Of a stretch of DNA of 64,000 bases, positions 3,159-57,188 are shown piece by piece. A model generated the notes under the pieces. That model was not told the origin of the DNA and searched no databases. It saw only the letters and a list, made by a program, of their open reading frames with translations. The DNA is from Catellatospora sp. KI3 (GTDB lineage: Bacteria > Actinomycetota > Actinomycetes > Mycobacteriales > Micromonosporaceae). The stretch lies in NCBI RefSeq assembly GCF_029948125.1, contig NZ_JASAMB010000007.1, positions 124,001 to 188,000 on the forward strand. The letters run 5' to 3'. The translations under genes were made by a program, and so were the position numbers. Every line of letters begins with the position of its first letter. Position 1 is the stretch's first letter.

Positions 3159-4364
3159 TCAGATCCAGGTGGCCTGGAGGGGCAGGGTGTGGGCGCCGGT
3201 CATCATGCGGGCGTCGTAGAACTCGGCGCCGTCGGCGATTTCGAGGTCGCGGCAGCGTTCCAGCAGGATGGTCATGGCCAGGCGGGCCTCCAGGCGGGCC
3301 AGCGGCGCGCCGATGCAGAAGTGGATGCCGTGGCCGAACGCCAGGTGCTGGTTCGGGTTGCGGTCGATGTCGAACCGGTCGGGGTGGGCGAAGTGCCGCT
3401 CGTCGCGGTTGGCCGAGGCGATCCAGGGCATGAGGATCTTCCCGGCGGCGACGCGCTGCCCGCCGACGGTCGCCTCGGCGGTGGTCAGCCTGGCCAGGCG
3501 CGGGAACGGGGAGCGGAAGCGGAGCACCTCCTCCAGCATCGGCGCGATCTTCGCCGGGTCGCGCCGGATCGCGGCGGCGGCGTCGCGGTGCTCGTCCAGG
3601 CACCACACCGTGTTGGTGAGCAGCGTGGTCGTGGTGATGTGCCCGGCGATCAGCAGCACGCCGAGGAAGCCCACGATCTCCTCGTCGGTCAGGTGCTCGC
3701 CGTCGACCTCCGCCGCGATCAGGGTGGTGGTCAGATCGTCGGCGGGGGAGCGGCGGCGCTGTCGGATGTGCGCCAGCAGGTAGTCGATCATGGCGCGGAG
3801 GCGCTCGCCGGCCTGGTCCAGGCGGGCCTGGTCCGGGATGACCCGCTCCGGCAGCTGGGCGTTGAGCAGCGAGTCGGCCCAGCGGCGGAACTCGGCGCGG
3901 TCGGAGGCGGGCACTCCGATCAGCTCGGCGATCACGGTGACGGGCAGCGGGTAGGCCAGGGCCTGGACGAGGTCGAAGCGGGGGCTGCCGGAGACGGCGT
4001 CGAGCAGCTCGTCGGTGATGGTGGTGATCCGCGGGGCCAGCTCGGCCACCACCCGGGGGGTGAACGCCTTGCTCACCAGGCGGCGCAGCTTGTCGTGGCG
4101 CGGCGGGTCCATCCGGACGAAGTTGCCCCGGCTGAACAGCTCCAACTCGGCCTGCGGCGGCATCAGGCCGGTCAGGTCGGAGGAGAAGGTGACCGGGTCG
4201 GACAGGACCGCCTCGATGTCGTCGTAGCCGAAGAGGTGGTAGGCGCCGTACTGCTCGTCCCAGCTGACCGGCTCGTGGGCACGCATGCGCGCGTACCAGT
4301 CGACGACGCCCTCGAAGGTTCCCGGCTGCGCGATCAGCCCAGTTCCGCTGCTGACTGTCGCCAT
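3159..4364 (-). CDS. cytochrome P450
   Basis: A class I bacterial P450 of about 401 residues, the usual length for soluble actinobacterial members. It shows the I-helix oxygen-activation segment AGHITTTT (about 240-247), the K-helix ExxR in EEVLRFRSP (about 278-286), PPRHDKLRRLV in the C-helix region, and the heme-binding loop FGHGIHFCIG with the cysteine ligand at about residue 350. It should catalyse NAD(P)H-driven hydroxylation of a small substrate and needs a ferredoxin and reductase, neither of which is adjacent. A GTG three codons upstream (4373) is possible. I prefer the ATG at 4364 because a GGGGG purine run lies 8 nt upstream. The substrate cannot be told. No biosynthetic cluster surrounds it. 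Confidence 0.93.
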   Translation of the reverse strand: MATVSSGTGLIAQPGTFEGVVDWYARMRAHEPVSWDEQYGAYHLFGYDDIEAVLSDPVTFSSDLTGLMPPQAELELFSRGNFVRMDPPRHDKLRRLVSKAFTPRVVAELAPRITTITDELLDAVSGSPRFDLVQALAYPLPVTVIAELIGVPASDRAEFRRWADSLLNAQLPERVIPDQARLDQAGERLRAMIDYLLAHIRQRRRSPADDLTTTLIAAEVDGEHLTDEEIVGFLGVLLIAGHITTTTLLTNTVWCLDEHRDAAAAIRRDPAKIAPMLEEVLRFRSPFPRLARLTTAEATVGGQRVAAGKILMPWIASANRDERHFAHPDRFDIDRNPNQHLAFGHGIHFCIGAPLARLEARLAMTILLERCRDLEIADGAEFYDARMMTGAHTLPLQATWI

Positions 4365-32917: not shown

Positions 32918-32978
32918 GTTGATCACGGTGGCGGGGTGGGGATACGCCGTCGAACCCGACCACAAGTTCATGATCAAC
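32918..32978 (-). repeat. 61-bp dispersed element, copy in the 32.5-33.0 kb gap
   Basis: Read on the minus strand it starts GTTGATCATGAACTTGTGG and ends TGATCAAC, giving 8-bp terminal inverted repeats. It matches the 54181/54616 copies over the first half. The rest of the 32468-33020 gap holds no gene I can support. Confidence 0.75.
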
Positions 32979-50643: not shown

Positions 50644-51174
50644 TCAGCTGGCGCTGGAGCGCATGGCGCGTACGGCGGCGCGCAGGGCCTGGGCCAGGCT
50701 GATCGCCTCCAGGGCCGTCATCACGGGGCTGTTCAGCACGAACGAGTACGAGTCCGGCCGGAAGCTCAGCGGCCCCGTCGTCGGCGTGATCCGCCCGACG
50801 GGCCGCCCGCCGACCGAGAACTCGAAGTTGCGGTCGGACCACACGCTCGTCTGCCGTACGCCGAGCGTGCGGCCGTTGCCGAGCGTGATCGCCGCCCCGT
50901 TGATCGGCCGCCACAGTCCGAGCTTGACGTCCACCACGGTCCGCCCGTCCGGCGTGCGCACCGTCAGCTGCCGCCCGGTCCAGCCCTGGGTGCCGCCCGC
51001 CGCGAGCACGGTGCCGCGGACGTCGAGGATCTCGAACCTGCTGTGCAGCGACCACACGTGCCACTGCACGTGCGCGACCGCCTGCCCGCCGGTGTCGAGC
51101 ACGGGTGAGGTGCCGCTGGTCATCGCCTTGTCCGGGAGCAGCAGCTGTCCCGTGAAGGGTGCGGTCAGACTCAT
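50644..51174 (-). CDS. LURP-one/scramblase-like (tubby-type fold) protein
   Basis: A 176-residue soluble protein resembling LURP-one-related/DUF567 proteins. Beta-rich repeats are seen in AVAHVQWHVWSLHSRFEILDVRGTVLAA, TVVDVKLGLWRPINGA and NFEFSVGGRPVGRITP, and the C-terminal helix LEAISLAQALRAAVRAMR packs in the fold. The role in bacteria is unclear. Start ATG 51174 is the family-like start; an upstream frame to 51270 runs through the operator palindrome at 51205 and is rejected. It is divergent from the large beta-helix protein and shares the LacI-type operator region. Confidence 0.78.
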   Translation of the reverse strand: MSLTAPFTGQLLLPDKAMTSGTSPVLDTGGQAVAHVQWHVWSLHSRFEILDVRGTVLAAGGTQGWTGRQLTVRTPDGRTVVDVKLGLWRPINGAAITLGNGRTLGVRQTSVWSDRNFEFSVGGRPVGRITPTTGPLSFRPDSYSFVLNSPVMTALEAISLAQALRAAVRAMRSSAS

Positions 51175-51204
51175 GCGGCCAGCGTAGGCGGCCGCGGCAA
51201 CCGT

Positions 51205-51226
51205 CGATGGAGAGCGCTCTCCATCG
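51205..51226. promoter_or_regulatory. LacI-type operator, 22-bp perfect palindrome
   Basis: CGATGGAGAGCGCTCTCCATCG lies 31 bp before the minus-strand LURP-like start. The core TGGAGAGCGCTCTCCA is repeated at 51380. It resembles CebR/CelR operators (TGGGAGCGCTCCCA). Confidence 0.75.
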
Positions 51227-51338
51227 TAAGCCGCGCGAGGGCCGCCCGAAACCCGGAGAGCGATTTCCACATAGCACGCTCACCGCCGCATCGCGTTGGG
51301 ACAAAACGGTTTCCTCAAGGACAAGACGGCGGGGGATA

Positions 51339-51367
51339 TTGACGCCGCCGCAACCGGAGCGTAATAC
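51339..51367 (+). promoter_or_regulatory. near-consensus sigma70 promoter
   Basis: TTGACG and TAATAC are separated by exactly 17 bp. Transcription would start near 51374, immediately before the operator at 51380. Confidence 0.7.
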
Positions 51368-51379
51368 TCGGGGACACTT

Positions 51380-51395
51380 TGGAGAGCGCTCTCCA
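51380..51395 (+). promoter_or_regulatory. LacI-type operator, downstream copy
   Basis: TGGAGAGCGCTCTCCA, a perfect 16-bp palindrome identical to the core of the 51205 site. It lies at about +7 to +22 of the promoter, a classic repressor position. Two sites 170 bp apart could loop. Confidence 0.75.
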
Positions 51396-51449
51396 GTCTG
51401 CGCACAGACCCGTTCGCGTCACCCCGTACCCCCGTTCGGAAGGCAGAAC

Positions 51450-54104
51450 ATGAGTCCCGAGCCGCTCCCCGGCATCGCGGCGCCGCCCCGGCGCCGCCGC
51501 AAACTCCTCGTCGCGACGTCAGCCGCTCTGCTGGCCCTCGTCGGCACCTACGCGTTCGCCGTGCCCGCGGCGCACGCCGCCGACCCCCTGATCTCCGTCG
51601 GCAAGACCGCCACCGCCTCCTCGCTGCAGGGCGCCGACCTGCCCGCGAGCAACGCCGTCGACGGCAACGCCGGCACCCGCTGGGGCAGCGCCTGGAGCGA
51701 CCCGCAGTGGATCCAGATCGACCTGGGCGCCACCGCGGCGATCAGCCAGGTGGTCCTGCAGTGGGAGGGCGCCTCCGCCAAGGCGTTCCAGCTGCAGGTC
51801 TCCGGCAACGGCACCAGCTGGACCGACATCTACAGCACCACCACCGGCCCCGGCGGCACGCAGACCCTGGCCGTCTCCGGCTCCGGCCGCTACATCCGCA
51901 TGTACGGCACCCAGCGCAACTCCGGCTACGGCTACTCCCTGTTCGAGTTCGGCGTGTACGGCGTGATCGGCGGCACCCAGCCCAGCCCCAGCGCCAGCCC
52001 CACCCCCAGCACCTCGCCCGGCGCGTGCGCGCTCGCCTCGCAGGGCCGGCCCGCCGCAGCCTCCTCGGCCGAGTCCGGCACCGCGGCCGCCGCGTTCGAC
52101 GGCAACTCCGGCACCCGCTGGGGCAGCCTGTTCACCGACCCGCAGTGGATCCAGGTCGACCTGGGCAGCACCAAGACCCTGTGCCAGGTGCAGCTGGAGT
52201 GGGAGACCGCTTCGGCGAAGGCGTTCCAGCTCCAGGTGTCCAACGACGCCGCGAACTGGACCAGCGTCTACTCGACCACGACCGGCCCCGGCGGCACCCA
52301 GAACCTGGCCGTCTCCGGCTCCGGCCGCTACGTGCGGATGTACGGCACCCAGCGCAACACCGGCTACGGCTACTCGCTGTGGGAGTTCAAGGTGTACGCG
52401 GGCGGCGTCGTCGTCACCGACCCGGTCGAGCCGACCGACCCGATGAACCCCAACCTCGGCCCGAACACCTTCGTCTATGACCCGTCGACCCCGACGGCCA
52501 CCATCCAGAGCAAGCTCAACCAGATCTTCACCGAGCAGGAGACCAACCAGTTCGGCGCCAACCGGTACGCGGTGCTGTTCAAGCCGGGCACCTACACCGC
52601 CGACGTGAACCTGGGCTTCTACACGCAGGTCGCGGGCCTGGGCTTCTCGCCCGACGACGTGAACCTCAACGGCCACGTGCGGGTCGAGGCGCTGTGGTTC
52701 GGCGGCAACGCCACCCAGAACTTCTGGCGTACCGCGGAGAACCTCTCCGTGACGCTGCCCGCGGGCAACACGGTCGAGCGCTGGGCGGTCGCGCAGGCCG
52801 CGGCCTACCGGCGGATGCACCTCAAGGGGGCCGGCAACCAGATCCAGCTGTGGAACGGCGGCGACGGCTGGGCCTCCGGCGGCCTGATGGCCGACACCAA
52901 GGTCGACGGGCTGGTCTCGTCCGGGTCGCAGCAGCAGTGGTTCTCGCGCAACAGCGAGTTCGGCAGCTGGACCGGCTCGGTGTGGAACATGGTGTTCACC
53001 GGCGTCGTCGGCGCCCCGGCGCCGCACTTCCCGAACCCGTCGCACACCGTCGTCACGAACAGCCCGATCGTGCGCGAGAAGCCGTTCCTGTACGTGGACG
53101 GCACCGGCACGTACCGCGTGTTCAAGCCCGGCGTGCGCACCAACGCGCAGGGCACCAGCTGGTACAACAAGACGCCGGTCGGCACCTCGATCTCGCTGGC
53201 CGACTTCTACGTGGTCCGCCCCGGCGCGACCGCGGCGACCATCAACAACGCGCTGGCGGCGGGCAAGAACCTGCTGTTCACGCCGGGTGTGTACCACCTG
53301 AACCAGACGCTGCAGGTCAACCGGGCCGACACGGTCGTGCTGGGCCTGGGCCTGGCCACCCTCATCCCGGACGGCGGCATCACCGCGATCAAGGTCGCCG
53401 ACGTCGACGGCGTCCAGGTCGCGGGCCTGCTCATCGACGCGGGCACCGCCAACTCGGCGACGCTGATGGAGGTCGGCCCGGCCGGGTCGAACGCGAGCCA
53501 CGCCGCCAACCCGACCTCGCTGCACGACGTGTACTTCCGCATCGGCGGCGCCGGTGCCGGCAAGGCCACCACCAGCCTGGTAATCAACAGCAACAACGTG
53601 ATCGGCGACCACATGTGGCTGTGGCGGGCCGACCACGGCACCGGCGTGGGGTGGACCGTCAACACCGCCGACACGGGCCTCATCGTCAACGGCAACGACG
53701 TCACCATGTACGGCCTGTTCGTCGAGCACTACCAGAAGTACGAGGTGATCTGGAACGGCAACGGCGGCCGGACGTACTTCTTCCAGAACGAGCTGCCGTA
53801 CGAGGCCCCGAACCAGGCCGCCTGGATGAACGGCAGCACCCGGGGCTACGCCGCGTACAAGGTCGCCGACTCGGTGACCACGCACGAGGCGTGGGGCGTG
53901 GGCTCGTACTGCGTCTTCACCCAGGACCTGTCCATCGTCGGCGAACGAGGCTTCGAAGTCCCGGTGAAGCCCGGCGTCAAGTTCCACAACCTGGTCATCG
54001 TCTCCCTCGGCGGCCAGGGCACCATCGCCCACGTCATCAACAACACCGGCGGCCCCGCCAACACCGCCACCCCGACCGTCTACCTCAACGAGTTCTCCGG
54101 CTGA
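51450..54104 (+). CDS. secreted protein with two CBM32 domains and a right-handed beta-helix
   Basis: An 884-residue secreted protein. The signal peptide runs to about 43 (ends AHA). Two F5/8-type (CBM32-like) domains follow at about 47-172 and 191-318, both ending with an SGRYIRMYGTQRN-type strand. A C-terminal parallel beta-helix (about 335-884) has YAVLFKPGTYTADV and NLLFTPGVYHLNQTLQVNRADTVVLGLG, typical of pectate-lyase-like or GH55-like folds. Homologues are often mislabelled adenylyl cyclase, for which there is no catalytic site. The glycan substrate is unknown. Start ATG 51450 follows GGAAGG. The LacI-type operators support carbohydrate induction. Confidence 0.88.
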   Translation: MSPEPLPGIAAPPRRRRKLLVATSAALLALVGTYAFAVPAAHAADPLISVGKTATASSLQGADLPASNAVDGNAGTRWGSAWSDPQWIQIDLGATAAISQVVLQWEGASAKAFQLQVSGNGTSWTDIYSTTTGPGGTQTLAVSGSGRYIRMYGTQRNSGYGYSLFEFGVYGVIGGTQPSPSASPTPSTSPGACALASQGRPAAASSAESGTAAAAFDGNSGTRWGSLFTDPQWIQVDLGSTKTLCQVQLEWETASAKAFQLQVSNDAANWTSVYSTTTGPGGTQNLAVSGSGRYVRMYGTQRNTGYGYSLWEFKVYAGGVVVTDPVEPTDPMNPNLGPNTFVYDPSTPTATIQSKLNQIFTEQETNQFGANRYAVLFKPGTYTADVNLGFYTQVAGLGFSPDDVNLNGHVRVEALWFGGNATQNFWRTAENLSVTLPAGNTVERWAVAQAAAYRRMHLKGAGNQIQLWNGGDGWASGGLMADTKVDGLVSSGSQQQWFSRNSEFGSWTGSVWNMVFTGVVGAPAPHFPNPSHTVVTNSPIVREKPFLYVDGTGTYRVFKPGVRTNAQGTSWYNKTPVGTSISLADFYVVRPGATAATINNALAAGKNLLFTPGVYHLNQTLQVNRADTVVLGLGLATLIPDGGITAIKVADVDGVQVAGLLIDAGTANSATLMEVGPAGSNASHAANPTSLHDVYFRIGGAGAGKATTSLVINSNNVIGDHMWLWRADHGTGVGWTVNTADTGLIVNGNDVTMYGLFVEHYQKYEVIWNGNGGRTYFFQNELPYEAPNQAAWMNGSTRGYAAYKVADSVTTHEAWGVGSYCVFTQDLSIVGERGFEVPVKPGVKFHNLVIVSLGGQGTIAHVINNTGGPANTATPTVYLNEFSG

Positions 54105-54126
54105 CCCCGGCCGTACCCCCTGATCC

Positions 54127-54167
54127 CCGGCGTGCGTCGCAGACCCCCGAGTCGCGGCGCACGCCGG
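54127..54167 (+). terminator. terminator after the beta-helix gene
   Basis: CCGGCGTGCGTCGC pairs with GCGGCGCACGCCGG, 14-bp arms with one mismatch and a 13-nt loop, beginning 22 bp after the stop. Confidence 0.65.
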
Positions 54168-54177
54168 AACCTTCCAC

Positions 54178-54246
54178 CCCGTTGATCATGAACTTATGGC
54201 ACGGTTCGGCGGCGTGTTCCGTGCACAGCTTCCTGATCGACTCACC
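54178..54246 (+). repeat. left 69-bp inverted repeat of the GNAT cassette
   Basis: This repeat contains a copy of the 61-bp element (54181-54241). It matches the right repeat at 64 of 69 positions and supplies the ATG (54188) of the acetyltransferase ORF. Confidence 0.85.
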
Positions 54247-54616
54247 TGGGGGCAGGGTGGACGGGCAGATGTACCGGATGGCGCTGCCGGACGGCGAGGC
54301 GGTCGGGACCATCGGCTGGTGGGCGCCGGAGTGGCAGGGCGAGACCGGGTACGAGTCCGGCTGGCACATCCTGCCCGGGTTCCAGGGGCGGGGCATCGCC
54401 GTGGCCGCCGCCCGGCAGATCGTGGCGATCACGCGGGCCGCCGGCCGATACCGCTGGCTGTGCGCTTTTCCCAGCGTCGACAACCCGGCCTCCAGCGCGA
54501 TCTGCCGCCGCATCGGCTTCGAACTGGCGGGCGAGTCCGATTTCGAGTACCCCAAGGGCCACCTCATGCGCAGCAACGTCTGGCGCCTCGACCTGCGCGC
54601 AACCCAGGGCGGTTAG
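54188..54616 (+). CDS. GNAT acetyltransferase fragment enclosed by inverted repeats
   Basis: A 142-residue GNAT protein. The acetyl-CoA-binding block is ESGWHILPGFQGRGIAVAAAR (Q/R-x-x-G-x-G/A type, about 59-79). CAFPSVDNPASSAICRRIGF and DFEYPKGHLMRSNVWRLDL mark a family with full-length relatives of about 170-180 residues, so the N-terminal strand/helix may be missing. The first residues (MNLWHGSAACSVHSF) are encoded by the left inverted repeat, and the TAG stop lies in the right one. Whether it is active is uncertain. The substrate is unknown. Confidence 0.65.
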   Translation: MNLWHGSAACSVHSFLIDSPGGRVDGQMYRMALPDGEAVGTIGWWAPEWQGETGYESGWHILPGFQGRGIAVAAARQIVAITRAAGRYRWLCAFPSVDNPASSAICRRIGFELAGESDFEYPKGHLMRSNVWRLDLRATQGG

Positions 54617-54679
54617 TCGATCAGGAAGCGGTGCATGGGACACGCCGCCGAACCGTGCCATAAGTTCATGATCGACGGG
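54611..54679 (-). repeat. right 69-bp inverted repeat of the GNAT cassette
   Basis: The complement of 54178-54246 with five differences, containing the 61-bp element in reverse (54616-54676) and the stop codon of the GNAT ORF (54614-54616). Confidence 0.85.
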
Positions 54680-54879
54680 ATATAGGTGGCTGTGAGTGGT
54701 TGTGGTGGGGAACGGGGCGGGTTAGGGTCGGCGGCGGGAGTATGAGGCACCGTGCGCGAGTGACGGCGCGCGAGACGTCTGGGCAGGGCGGCTGAGCGCG
54801 AAACCGACTCGGCATGTCCGGTGGCAGGACCTGAGTGCGGTCCGCGGCCCTGGAGCGGCGCACCGTGAATGCGCACGTC

Positions 54880-54908
54880 GAGCGCTGGGCGTGAACGCCC
54901 GGCGGCTC
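54880..54908 (+). promoter_or_regulatory. leader hairpin before the PL11 ribosome site
   Basis: GAGC-GCT-GGGCG pairs with CGCCC-GGCG-GCTC around TGAA. It ends just before AGGAGAG at about 54918. It could affect access to the ribosome site. The rest of 54680-54879 shows no gene. Confidence 0.35.
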
Positions 54909-54929
54909 CGTTCCCCTCCAGGAGAGATC

Positions 54930-57188
54930 ATGCGATCACCAACGCGCCGCTTCGCGTTGCTCGCCGCCACGACCGCATCGCTGCTCGCAGCGGGCACCCT
55001 CGCCGCGGTCAGTGCGCAGGCGGCTGCCGGATGCAGCGTCAGCTACAAGGTCACCAACGAGTGGCAGGGTGGCTTCGGCACCGACATCACCATCACCAAC
55101 CTCGGCGACCCGGTCACCAGCTGGGCTCTGACCTGGGCGTACCCGGCGGGGCAGGTGGTGGGCCAGTTCTGGAACGCCGAGATCACCCAGTCCGGCGCGA
55201 ACGTCACCGCGCGCAACGTCAGCTACAACGGCAGCCTCGGCACCGGCGGCACCGCCAACTTCGGCTTCAACGCCAGCTGGACCGGCGCCAACCCGGCCCC
55301 GGCGTCATTCGCCCTCAACGGCACCAACTGTACGGGCGGCACCACGCCGACCTCGCCGAGCGCCCCGGCGTCCCCGTCGGCGTCGCCCTCGCGCAGCGCG
55401 TCGCCGAGCCCGAGCGCCCCGGCCAGCCCCAGCCCGTCGCCGTCGACCCCGACCGGGCCGAACGGGCGGCACCAGGCCGAGAAGCTGGACCGGGGGCTGA
55501 TCAGCGTACGGTCGGGCAGCGGCAACCTCGTCTCGTGGCGCCTGCTGGCCGGCGACGCCGCCAACACCGGCTTCAACGTGTACCGGGGCAGCACCAAGGT
55601 CAACGCCTCGCCGATCACCGACTCCACCAACTACCTCGACAGCGGCGCCGCCGCGGGCAGCGCGTACACGGTGCGGGCGGTCGTCAACGGGGTGGAGCAG
55701 GCCGCGTCGGCGTCGGCGCTGCAGTTCACCAACGGCTACCTCGACGTTCCGATCCAGAACCCCGGCGGGTACGTCGCCAACGACGCCTCCGTCGGCGACC
55801 TCGACGGCGACGGCGTCTACGAGATCGTCCTCAAGTGGGACCCGACCGACGCCAAGGACAACTCGCAGTCCGGCGTCACCAGCGTCGTCTACGTCGACGC
55901 GTACAAGCTCAACGGCACCAGGCTGTGGCGGATCAACCTGGGCCGCAACATCCGGGCCGGGGCCCACTACACCCAGTTCCAGGTGTACGACTACGACGGC
56001 GACGGCAAGGCCGAGGTGGCCATGAAGACCGCCGACGCGACCGTCGACGGCGGCGGCACCGTCATCGGCAGTTCCAGCGCCGACTACCGCAACTCCAGCG
56101 GCTACGTCCTGTCCGGCCCCGAGTACCTGACCATGTTCAACGGGCAGACCGGCCGGGCCATGTCGACCGTCAGCTACGACCCGCCGCGCGGCACCGTCTC
56201 CTCCTGGGGCGACAGCTACGGCAACCGCGTCGACCGCTTCCTCGCCGGTACGGCGTACCTGGACGGTGCCCGCCCGTCGCTGATCATGGCGCGGGGCTAC
56301 TACACCCGTACCGTCATCGCGGCGTGGGACTTCCGCAACGGCAGCCTCACCAAGCGCTGGACGTTCGACAGCAACAGCTCCGGCAACTCGGCGTACGCGG
56401 GCCAGGGCAACCACCAGCTGTCCATCGCCGACGTCGACGCCGACGGCCGCGACGAGATCGTCTACGGTTCGATGGCGCTCGACGACAACGGCGCCAAGCT
56501 GTGGAACACCGGCAACGGCCACGGCGACGCCATGCACGTCGGCGACCTCGACCCGGCCCGCGCCGGGCTGGAGGAGTTCAAGGTCGACGAGGACGGCAGC
56601 AAACCGTCGTCGTGGGTGGCCGACGCCCGCACCGGCCAGGTGCTCTGGACGACGCCCGCCAACGGCGACAACGGCCGCGGCGTCGCCGGGGACGTCTACG
56701 CCGGCAGCGCCGGGGCGGAGAGCTGGTCCTCGGCCGACTCGGGGCTGCGGTCGGTACGCACCGGGGCCGTGGTCAGCAGCCGCAAGCCCGGCTCGACGAA
56801 CTTCCTCGCCTGGTGGGACGCCGACCCGGTACGGGAGCTGCTCGACGGCACCCACGTCGACAAGTACGGCACGGGTGGCGACACGCGCCTGCTGACCGGT
56901 GCGAACGTGCACTCGAACAACGGCACCAAGTCGACGCCGTCGCTGTCGGGTGACCTGTTCGGCGACTGGCGGGAAGAGGTGATCTGGCCGGTGACCGGGG
57001 ACACGGCGCTGCGGATCTACAGCACGCCGACGCCGACGACGCGCCGCATCTACACCCTGATGCACGACATCCAGTACCGCCTGGCGATCGCCTGGCAGAA
57101 CACGGCGTACAACCAGCCGCCGCACCCGAGCTTCTTCATCGGCGACGGCATGGGCACCCCGCCCGTCCCGGACGTGTACCTCCGATAA
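54930..57188 (+). CDS. secreted rhamnogalacturonan lyase, CBM2-PL11
   Basis: A 752-residue secreted lyase. Signal peptide about 1-33. A CBM2 (about 34-132; CSVSYKVTNEWQGGFGTDI) binds cellulose. A Ser/Pro-rich linker (about 133-177) leads into a PL11 catalytic propeller (about 178-752) beginning AEKLDRGLISV, with calcium-type DGDGDG/DYDGDGKAE motifs and VGDLDGDGVYEIV. PL11 cleaves rhamnogalacturonan I, the branched pectin backbone, by beta-elimination. ATG 54930 follows AGGAGAG by about 6 nt; an upstream in-frame GTG at 54891 lies in the hairpin. It acts outside the cell with the mannanase on plant walls. Confidence 0.94.
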   Translation: MRSPTRRFALLAATTASLLAAGTLAAVSAQAAAGCSVSYKVTNEWQGGFGTDITITNLGDPVTSWALTWAYPAGQVVGQFWNAEITQSGANVTARNVSYNGSLGTGGTANFGFNASWTGANPAPASFALNGTNCTGGTTPTSPSAPASPSASPSRSASPSPSAPASPSPSPSTPTGPNGRHQAEKLDRGLISVRSGSGNLVSWRLLAGDAANTGFNVYRGSTKVNASPITDSTNYLDSGAAAGSAYTVRAVVNGVEQAASASALQFTNGYLDVPIQNPGGYVANDASVGDLDGDGVYEIVLKWDPTDAKDNSQSGVTSVVYVDAYKLNGTRLWRINLGRNIRAGAHYTQFQVYDYDGDGKAEVAMKTADATVDGGGTVIGSSSADYRNSSGYVLSGPEYLTMFNGQTGRAMSTVSYDPPRGTVSSWGDSYGNRVDRFLAGTAYLDGARPSLIMARGYYTRTVIAAWDFRNGSLTKRWTFDSNSSGNSAYAGQGNHQLSIADVDADGRDEIVYGSMALDDNGAKLWNTGNGHGDAMHVGDLDPARAGLEEFKVDEDGSKPSSWVADARTGQVLWTTPANGDNGRGVAGDVYAGSAGAESWSSADSGLRSVRTGAVVSSRKPGSTNFLAWWDADPVRELLDGTHVDKYGTGGDTRLLTGANVHSNNGTKSTPSLSGDLFGDWREEVIWPVTGDTALRIYSTPTPTTRRIYTLMHDIQYRLAIAWQNTAYNQPPHPSFFIGDGMGTPPVPDVYLR

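Follow-up and report, generated by a model that had tools for sequence, protein, structure and literature searches.

Short palindromic repeats of the REP type are well known from proteobacteria, and their presence there is ascribed to RAYT transposases. In P. fluorescens SBW25, 93% of the REPIN doublets, which are tied to RAYTs, are inverted, according to the available portions of PMC3116915 and PMC2817692. As outlined in those portions, the REPs and REPINs of Pseudomonas and enterics are short, extragenic, non-coding palindromes of high copy number with inverted doublets as the rule, and the repeat family described here, from Catellatospora sp. KI3, is like them in these respects. It differs from them in its element, which is 61 bp long with a long conserved loop (PMC3116915, PMC2817692), in the start of that element without a GTAG or CGTC tag, and in the spacing of its mates, which can be as much as 1.9 kb from each other and in many cases have a gene in between. 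With the CGTC-tagged REPs it has in common a palindromic family whose own transposase was not found, yet tag and size differ, and gene-enclosing inward pairs are not among the traits given for those repeats in the available portion of the report (PMC3733652). A further likeness, in layout only, is to TIMEs and bacterial MITEs, TIME-COMP and mobile insertion cassettes, in which two miniature elements stand around unrelated DNA (PMC4133298, as far as available).

The window, a stretch of 64,000 nucleotides, holds a GNAT acetyltransferase frame between two inverted arms. A repeat search returned arms of 69 nt each, complementary at 64/69 positions (92.75%) with 364 nt between them, which agrees with an earlier sequence-only reading of this DNA, as does the placement of the frame's ATG (54188) and TAG (54614-54616) inside the arms. 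Left and right arm each fold alone into a hairpin of −25.4 and −23.2 kcal/mol (z −2.2 and −1.5), values that 6/200 and 18/200 shuffles equal. A 16-mer core with up to 2 mismatches occurs three times in the window and in 0/100 shuffles, which is beyond chance. The nearest predicted genes to the solitary third copy lie at 98 and 369 nt. Rfam gave no match in 53900-54900, and neither a sigma-70-type promoter nor an intrinsic terminator was found at the locus.

Table 1. Features at and around the GNAT locus, in positions of the window.
Feature	Position	Strand	Remark
Left copy of the 61-bp palindromic element	54181..54241	+	Within arm 54178-54246
Right element copy, inward-facing mate	54616..54676	-	Within arm 54611-54679
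Third, solitary element copy of a different subtype	32918..32978	-	In the window
GC-rich 14-bp inverted repeat between upstream gene and left element	54127..54167		Also in G005 and G009
Remaining part of the GNAT acetyltransferase	54261..54616	+	Lacks the native start and about 50 codons; TAG arises at the right element's edge
Junction left by the 158-bp deletion, compared with G005 and G009	54260..54261		From alignment
Upstream gene; its product has two F5/8 type C domains	51159..54104	+	Same neighbour in G005 and G009
Gene downstream, for a CBM2 - rhamnogalacturonan lyase family 11 (RGL11) protein	54891..57188	+	Same neighbour in G005 and G009

Eleven genomes of the genus were compared: G000, the source of the window, and ten others, among them G001, G002 and G005-G010. 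They establish the arms as members of a dispersed family, an imperfect palindrome of 61 bp of which 50 copies could be set in register from 35 stretches of the own genome and the window. Searching that genome with the locus, with 40 of 320 candidates scored, gave at least 88 matches, namely the locus itself and arm copies, most elements appearing twice as they match both arms. In the same genome, a 19-base core with as many as 3 mismatches allowed matched at 39 + 39 = 78 places, some of which are the two strands of a single element, and its reversed-pattern control gave 0. In a table of 128 copies from six genomes, which is enriched in pairs since the stretches from genomes other than G000 were mostly chosen for pairs or lie opposite G000 pairs, conservation is strong in the left half GTYGATCATGAACYTATGG and the loop TCGACGGYGTGTC and looser in the right half; the consensus starts GTYGATC and ends GATCRAC. 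Most stem positions hardly vary, so that there is almost no compensatory change and a selected hairpin is not proven by this comparison.

The distribution is narrow. A 21-base core with up to 2 mismatches is present in 9/121 genomes of the bacterial family and in 2/44 of its genera (control 0); eight of these genomes belong to the own genus, and the one other has 6 matches. Copy number varies within the genus: at this mismatch limit, with matches on the two strands added together, the core has 1 match in G001 and 97 in G007. Searches of viral contigs with the exact 21-base pattern and of plasmids and phages with blastn found no element. Searches of titles and abstract starts yielded no published report of it, and a 16-base core was absent from paper texts, a collection outside which most subscription journals fall. 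Other palindromes accompany the family. A second repeat family, of the TTTCCCCGAAACTGCA type, lies inside several element pairs (L018 3129-3298, L024 3092-3446, L147 around 3698-3780 and the interior of L153) and also at the orthologous cox site of G005, where no pair stands. By eye, other palindromes that have GATC close to their ends occupy G000 element sites in other species (L148-L151 at cox, L132 and L134 at the mutase), and a further one lies upstream of the GNAT in L048 (1230-1300).

The comparisons also establish a rule of pairing. Among neighbouring copies less than 2 kb apart in six genomes, 41/42 face inward (+/-) with their left halves outward, the sole exception being a +/+ neighbour at 1,912 bp; at least 8 of these 42 gaps repeat a site of another genome by our matching, so that they represent at most 34 distinct sites. 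None of the five gaps of 2-4 kb is +/-, and from 4 kb upward all four kinds of orientation occur. The lists behind these counts hold all matches of G000 (78), G009 (81) and G008 (22), together with 33 of 35 in G002, 33 of 96 in G006 and 33 of 80 in G010, and were made with unlike mismatch limits. In the loci that were fetched, 37/38 neighbours below 2 kb are +/-. Pair interiors range from 12 to 1,841 bp, the truncated pair L281 aside. The tightest pairs, with spacers of 12-55 bp, have spacers that by eye are unrelated save where a site seems to be common to two species.

Pairs enclose one predicted gene or none. The enclosed genes encode GNAT, alkyltransferase-like, AhpC/TSA-type, AbiEi/DUF559, thiolase, PNPOx-type, GH16 and FUSC proteins, a MOSC oxidoreductase, the core gene product dapB and a protein of 134 residues that matches nothing in Pfam. 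The expectation of the sequence-only reading that the same arms would surround other genes is thus borne out, in the own genome and in relatives. The gene-enclosing pairs that were seen occupy 11 distinct sites and are all +/-, having been drawn from lists in which 1/42 close gaps is not +/-. Outside the pair arms no longer inverted repeat stood above shuffles (9.64 vs 9.09; 32 of 300).

A RAYT as partner was considered and rejected. PF01797 (Y1), the one transposase family tested, has 0 matches in the own genome and is unlinked to the element in relatives: it matches in 6/11 genus genomes, the element-bearing G000, G002, G005, G007 and G009 having none, and the element was absent at the 5 fetched of 9 Y1 places (best E 0.27), unlike REP/REPIN-RAYT systems as far as the available descriptions go. 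The search for a mobiliser, covering Y1, found none, which supports the view of the arms as a short repeat without a transposase. We file the element as REP/REPIN-like, with unusual pairing and no known mobiliser.

The reading that we favor, with a probability of roughly 0.6, takes the arms as two copies of a 61-bp REP-like palindrome of the genus that comes in inward pairs with one gene or none inside, and the GNAT as an ordinary bracketed gene whose 5' part was lost by a 158-bp deletion. The element would be a non-autonomous palindrome spread in trans by an enzyme, probably via hairpin or single-stranded intermediates, and the unit laid down or homogenized together would be the inward pair and not the enclosed gene.

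How alike are the mates of a pair? With subtype defined by bases 20-21 of the element, mates share it in 32/37 pairs where 25.2 are expected (reached by 3 of 5000 shuffles) and, with one row per site, in 15/18 where 12.0 are expected (159 of 5000). Mate identity is raised in the 11 pairs of G000 (0.866 vs 0.814 shuffled; 16 of 2000), in the 11 pairs of G009 (0.908 vs 0.820; 0 of 2000) and, within the CA subtype, in the 13 pairs of both genomes (0.900 vs 0.873; 12 of 5000). Mates were no more alike than shuffled ones in 16 further pairs of G002, G006 and G010 (0.831 vs 0.838) and in 6 same-subtype pairs of G007, G002 and G008 (0.836 vs 0.839).

Between genomes, both mates may differ in the same way. 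At the alkyltransferase and purD sites, 5 and 4 genomes, respectively, have CA/CA and G008 has AC/AC; at DLH, G000 and G005 have CA/CA and G009 has CC/CC; and at glyA, GC/GC in G000 and G009 stands against CA/CA in G007. The two mates are unlike in subtype at the GNAT site in G009, at plsC and thiolase in G000 and at trp in G007. Copies at different sites of G008 are 0.865 alike (8 comparisons), and G008 copies are 0.708 like their orthologous counterparts in G000 (5 comparisons), close to the non-orthologous baseline of 0.723. The orthologous copies of G000 and G005 are 0.893 alike vs a baseline of 0.834, and copies at different sites of G002 are only 0.748 alike. Turnover is clear in G008 only.

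The main functional rival is a boundary role, which could also be an added effect. Each copy would then act as a one-way transcription stop or insulator, with a C-rich tract followed by a hairpin resembling a Rho-dependent terminator, and inward pairs would be kept to block read-through from both sides. Judged from the sequence, we regard this as an unlikely account of the pairs, although several features of the gene borders fit it. By gene calls from our own GC-codon heuristic, which underlie all flank, gene-distance and interior counts, the median distance to a predicted gene is 25 nt for the left end of the element and 146 nt for the right end, and the left end faces a gene's 3' end in 89/128 copies; that it faces a 5' end in the other 39/128 is not what a terminator would lead one to expect. 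In 128 copies, C makes up 61% and G 17% of the 20 nt that adjoin the left end on its outer side. Over 40 nt, the values are 59% C and 19% G for the 89 copies facing a 3' end and 62% and 13% for the 39 facing a 5' end, vs 38% and 34% in the 40 nt after 302 element-free stops. Half of the tight pairs (7/14) lie between convergent predicted genes, as a two-sided block would, but the other 7/14 do not, and at the locus itself there is neither a T tract nor a terminator call, so that the intrinsic-terminator layout of a hairpin followed by a T tract was not found there. The neighboring predicted gene stops inside the element at 15 element ends, in 14/128 elements, with a TGA of the element as the stop codon; examples are found at L018 3354, L256 2963 and 4865, and L262 8707.

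Improbable, too, is a chance adjacency of single insertions into C-rich sites at gene borders, the inward orientation following from the strand composition at the ends of intervals. The flanks of 46 solitary copies, 59% C on the left and 44% G on the right, are like those of pairs, which is what this explanation calls for, and it is likewise consistent with the single-copy states at the cox and thiolase sites. Since some sites carry one copy only, single gain or loss also happens. The mutase site has a pair in G000 and no element in 5/6 relatives; presence and absence at sites agree with spread, and alone do not tell gain from loss. Border composition alone, however, leaves the uniformly inward gene-enclosing pairs described above unexplained, and it does not account for mates that share their subtype above shuffled expectation or that differ jointly in subtype between genomes at some shared sites.

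For the GNAT itself, comparison establishes both a shared site and a deletion. Three of the 11 genus genomes, namely G000, G005 (inferred to be C. tritici) and G009, have the F5/8 protein gene followed by an element, the GNAT, a second element and the CBM2/RGL11 protein gene, and in the latter two genomes the GNAT is full length. The sequence-only reading had proposed a captured gene fragment and had named the same arms and GNAT at the orthologous site in all relatives as the observation that would speak against it; they are there in both relatives found with the site. It was right that the N-terminal part is missing, as the window frame matches PF13302 from profile position 57 of 138 (E 1.2e-12) and a full-length relative in L045 from position 3. 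Relative to G005 and G009, the window copy alone lacks 158 alignment columns, which include the native start and about 50 codons. Because the full-length GNAT lies between elements at the orthologous site, the window GNAT looks, from these alignments, to have been damaged in place by this deletion rather than brought by a mobile cassette, and the captured-fragment reading is rejected on the same orthologues.

That the arms supply start and stop stands as far as position goes. The stop codon lies at the edge of the right element in all three genomes. The ATG in the left arm is unlikely to be used, given that no ribosome-binding site was seen before it and that the native start lay in the deleted part; it is a by-product of the deletion. 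A start codon inside a repeat arm can therefore be an accident of deletion. The window GNAT is probably decaying, as judged from this one lineage. Its tree branch is 0.19, vs 0.029 for G005 and 0.11 for G009; dN is below dS in all three comparisons of these genomes, and with 9, 4 and 10 residue changes unique to G000, G005 and G009 the window copy is not singled out.

Could the elements nevertheless bound a composite non-autonomous transposon by which the GNAT came here, in the manner of TIME composites or mobile insertion cassettes? The inward pairing below 2 kb and the presence of the same arms around other genes would suit such an origin. So would the finding that a full-length GNAT relative resides elsewhere, beside a YCII gene, in 7/8 other genus genomes, at loci (L047-L053) without any arm match. 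The sole strong GNAT match in G000, G005 and G009 is the present locus, and their best YCII match is 39-42% identical, which fits with or without a move from the ancestral GNAT site; their TauE relatives are 57-62% identical to the TauE of G001. A recent move is not resolved by the GNAT tree. In G008 (L294 2201-2400) the GNAT between TauE and YCII is an apparent C-terminal remnant, an independent loss in the same gene family. The upstream gene has only weaker matches in the 8 other genus genomes, from a query in the wrong frame that leaves the places valid and the identities not. Among the 80 retained of 151 relatives of the upstream protein, the closest named one is that of C. tritici NEAU-YM18 (97%), and the C. 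tritici locus is the only one in named genomes of this set with a GNAT, a close CBM2/RGL11 neighbor and full elements within 6 kb; the C. tritici GNAT is the same as that of G005.

Signs that pairs move genes are wanting where they were sought, and such a transposon is the least likely of the readings discussed so far. No terminal duplication of at least 5 bp was found in 37 pairs and 54 other copies, nor next to 54178 or 54679, where the sequence-only reading had advised looking for target-site duplications; a 4-bp terminal match occurs in one of the 37 pairs (0.17 expected), and matches of 2-3 bp are about as frequent as expected. When 37 interiors were compared all against all, gene-length matches linked orthologous sites only, different sites matched over 55-71 bp, and no gene was common to pairs at different sites. 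The thiolase resides at its own site without elements in 3/6 relatives (G001, G002 and G008), and the core gene dapB is bracketed. The mobile cassette of the sequence-only reading is therefore rejected, and here the family parts from TIME composites and mobile insertion cassettes (PMC4133298, as far as available), as it shows neither a duplication of at least 5 bp nor, within the sampled genomes, any sign of movement of the enclosed DNA. All 7 of 7 genomes have the alkyltransferase gene at its own site, 6 of them with an element on both sides. The AbiEi/DUF559 gene between purA and purD is bracketed by a pair in 5/6 genomes sampled and absent in G001 (L009 3284-4201; L162-L165), and the AhpC gene is present in 4/7 genomes, G007, which lacks it, having a tight pair at that site. 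DUF559 always comes with a pair and the empty AhpC site of G007 has one, so that arrival with or into the pair would be compatible with the record of these two genes.

Inversion of the interval is rejected, as 23/23 comparisons at 6 sites with a gene or ORF inside, element-free relatives included, keep the interior orientation relative to the flanks; four comparisons at the DLH and cox sites are ambiguous because the interior itself holds palindromes. The candidate excision scar GTYGATCRAC has strong C/G flanks at 1/7 such sites, with a second one close, and is suggestive at most. At L157 4804-4813 in G009, GTTGATCGAC with C-rich and G-rich flanks stands where G000 and G005 have a pair, and looks like two outer ends collapsed on a shared GATC.

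On the favored reading, a REP-like palindrome is laid down or homogenized in inward pairs that are limited to about 2 kb. This is roughly the span of single-stranded DNA at a replication fork, and a single-stranded or hairpin DNA route would fit that limit. A bolder proposal, which we offer tentatively and hold to be rather doubtful, is that a largely genus-specific system lays down or maintains 61-bp palindromes as inward pairs, which bracket intervals no longer than about 2 kb and in many cases one gene. It would also be able to rewrite the two mates jointly, the sites remaining in place as their sequence turns over. If true, this would be a new mode of paired-repeat maintenance by a factor whose reach is about that of the single-stranded DNA at the fork, and possibly a chromosome-wide set of gene boundary marks. 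Part of the interest of the family lies in its mates, whose subtypes sometimes differ jointly. Given an orientation rule that is near-absolute up to 2 kb, no linked RAYT and an occurrence almost confined to one actinobacterial genus of the sample, one can now ask what writes and keeps the pairs and, by comparison and experiment, whether the genes that they enclose are insulated.
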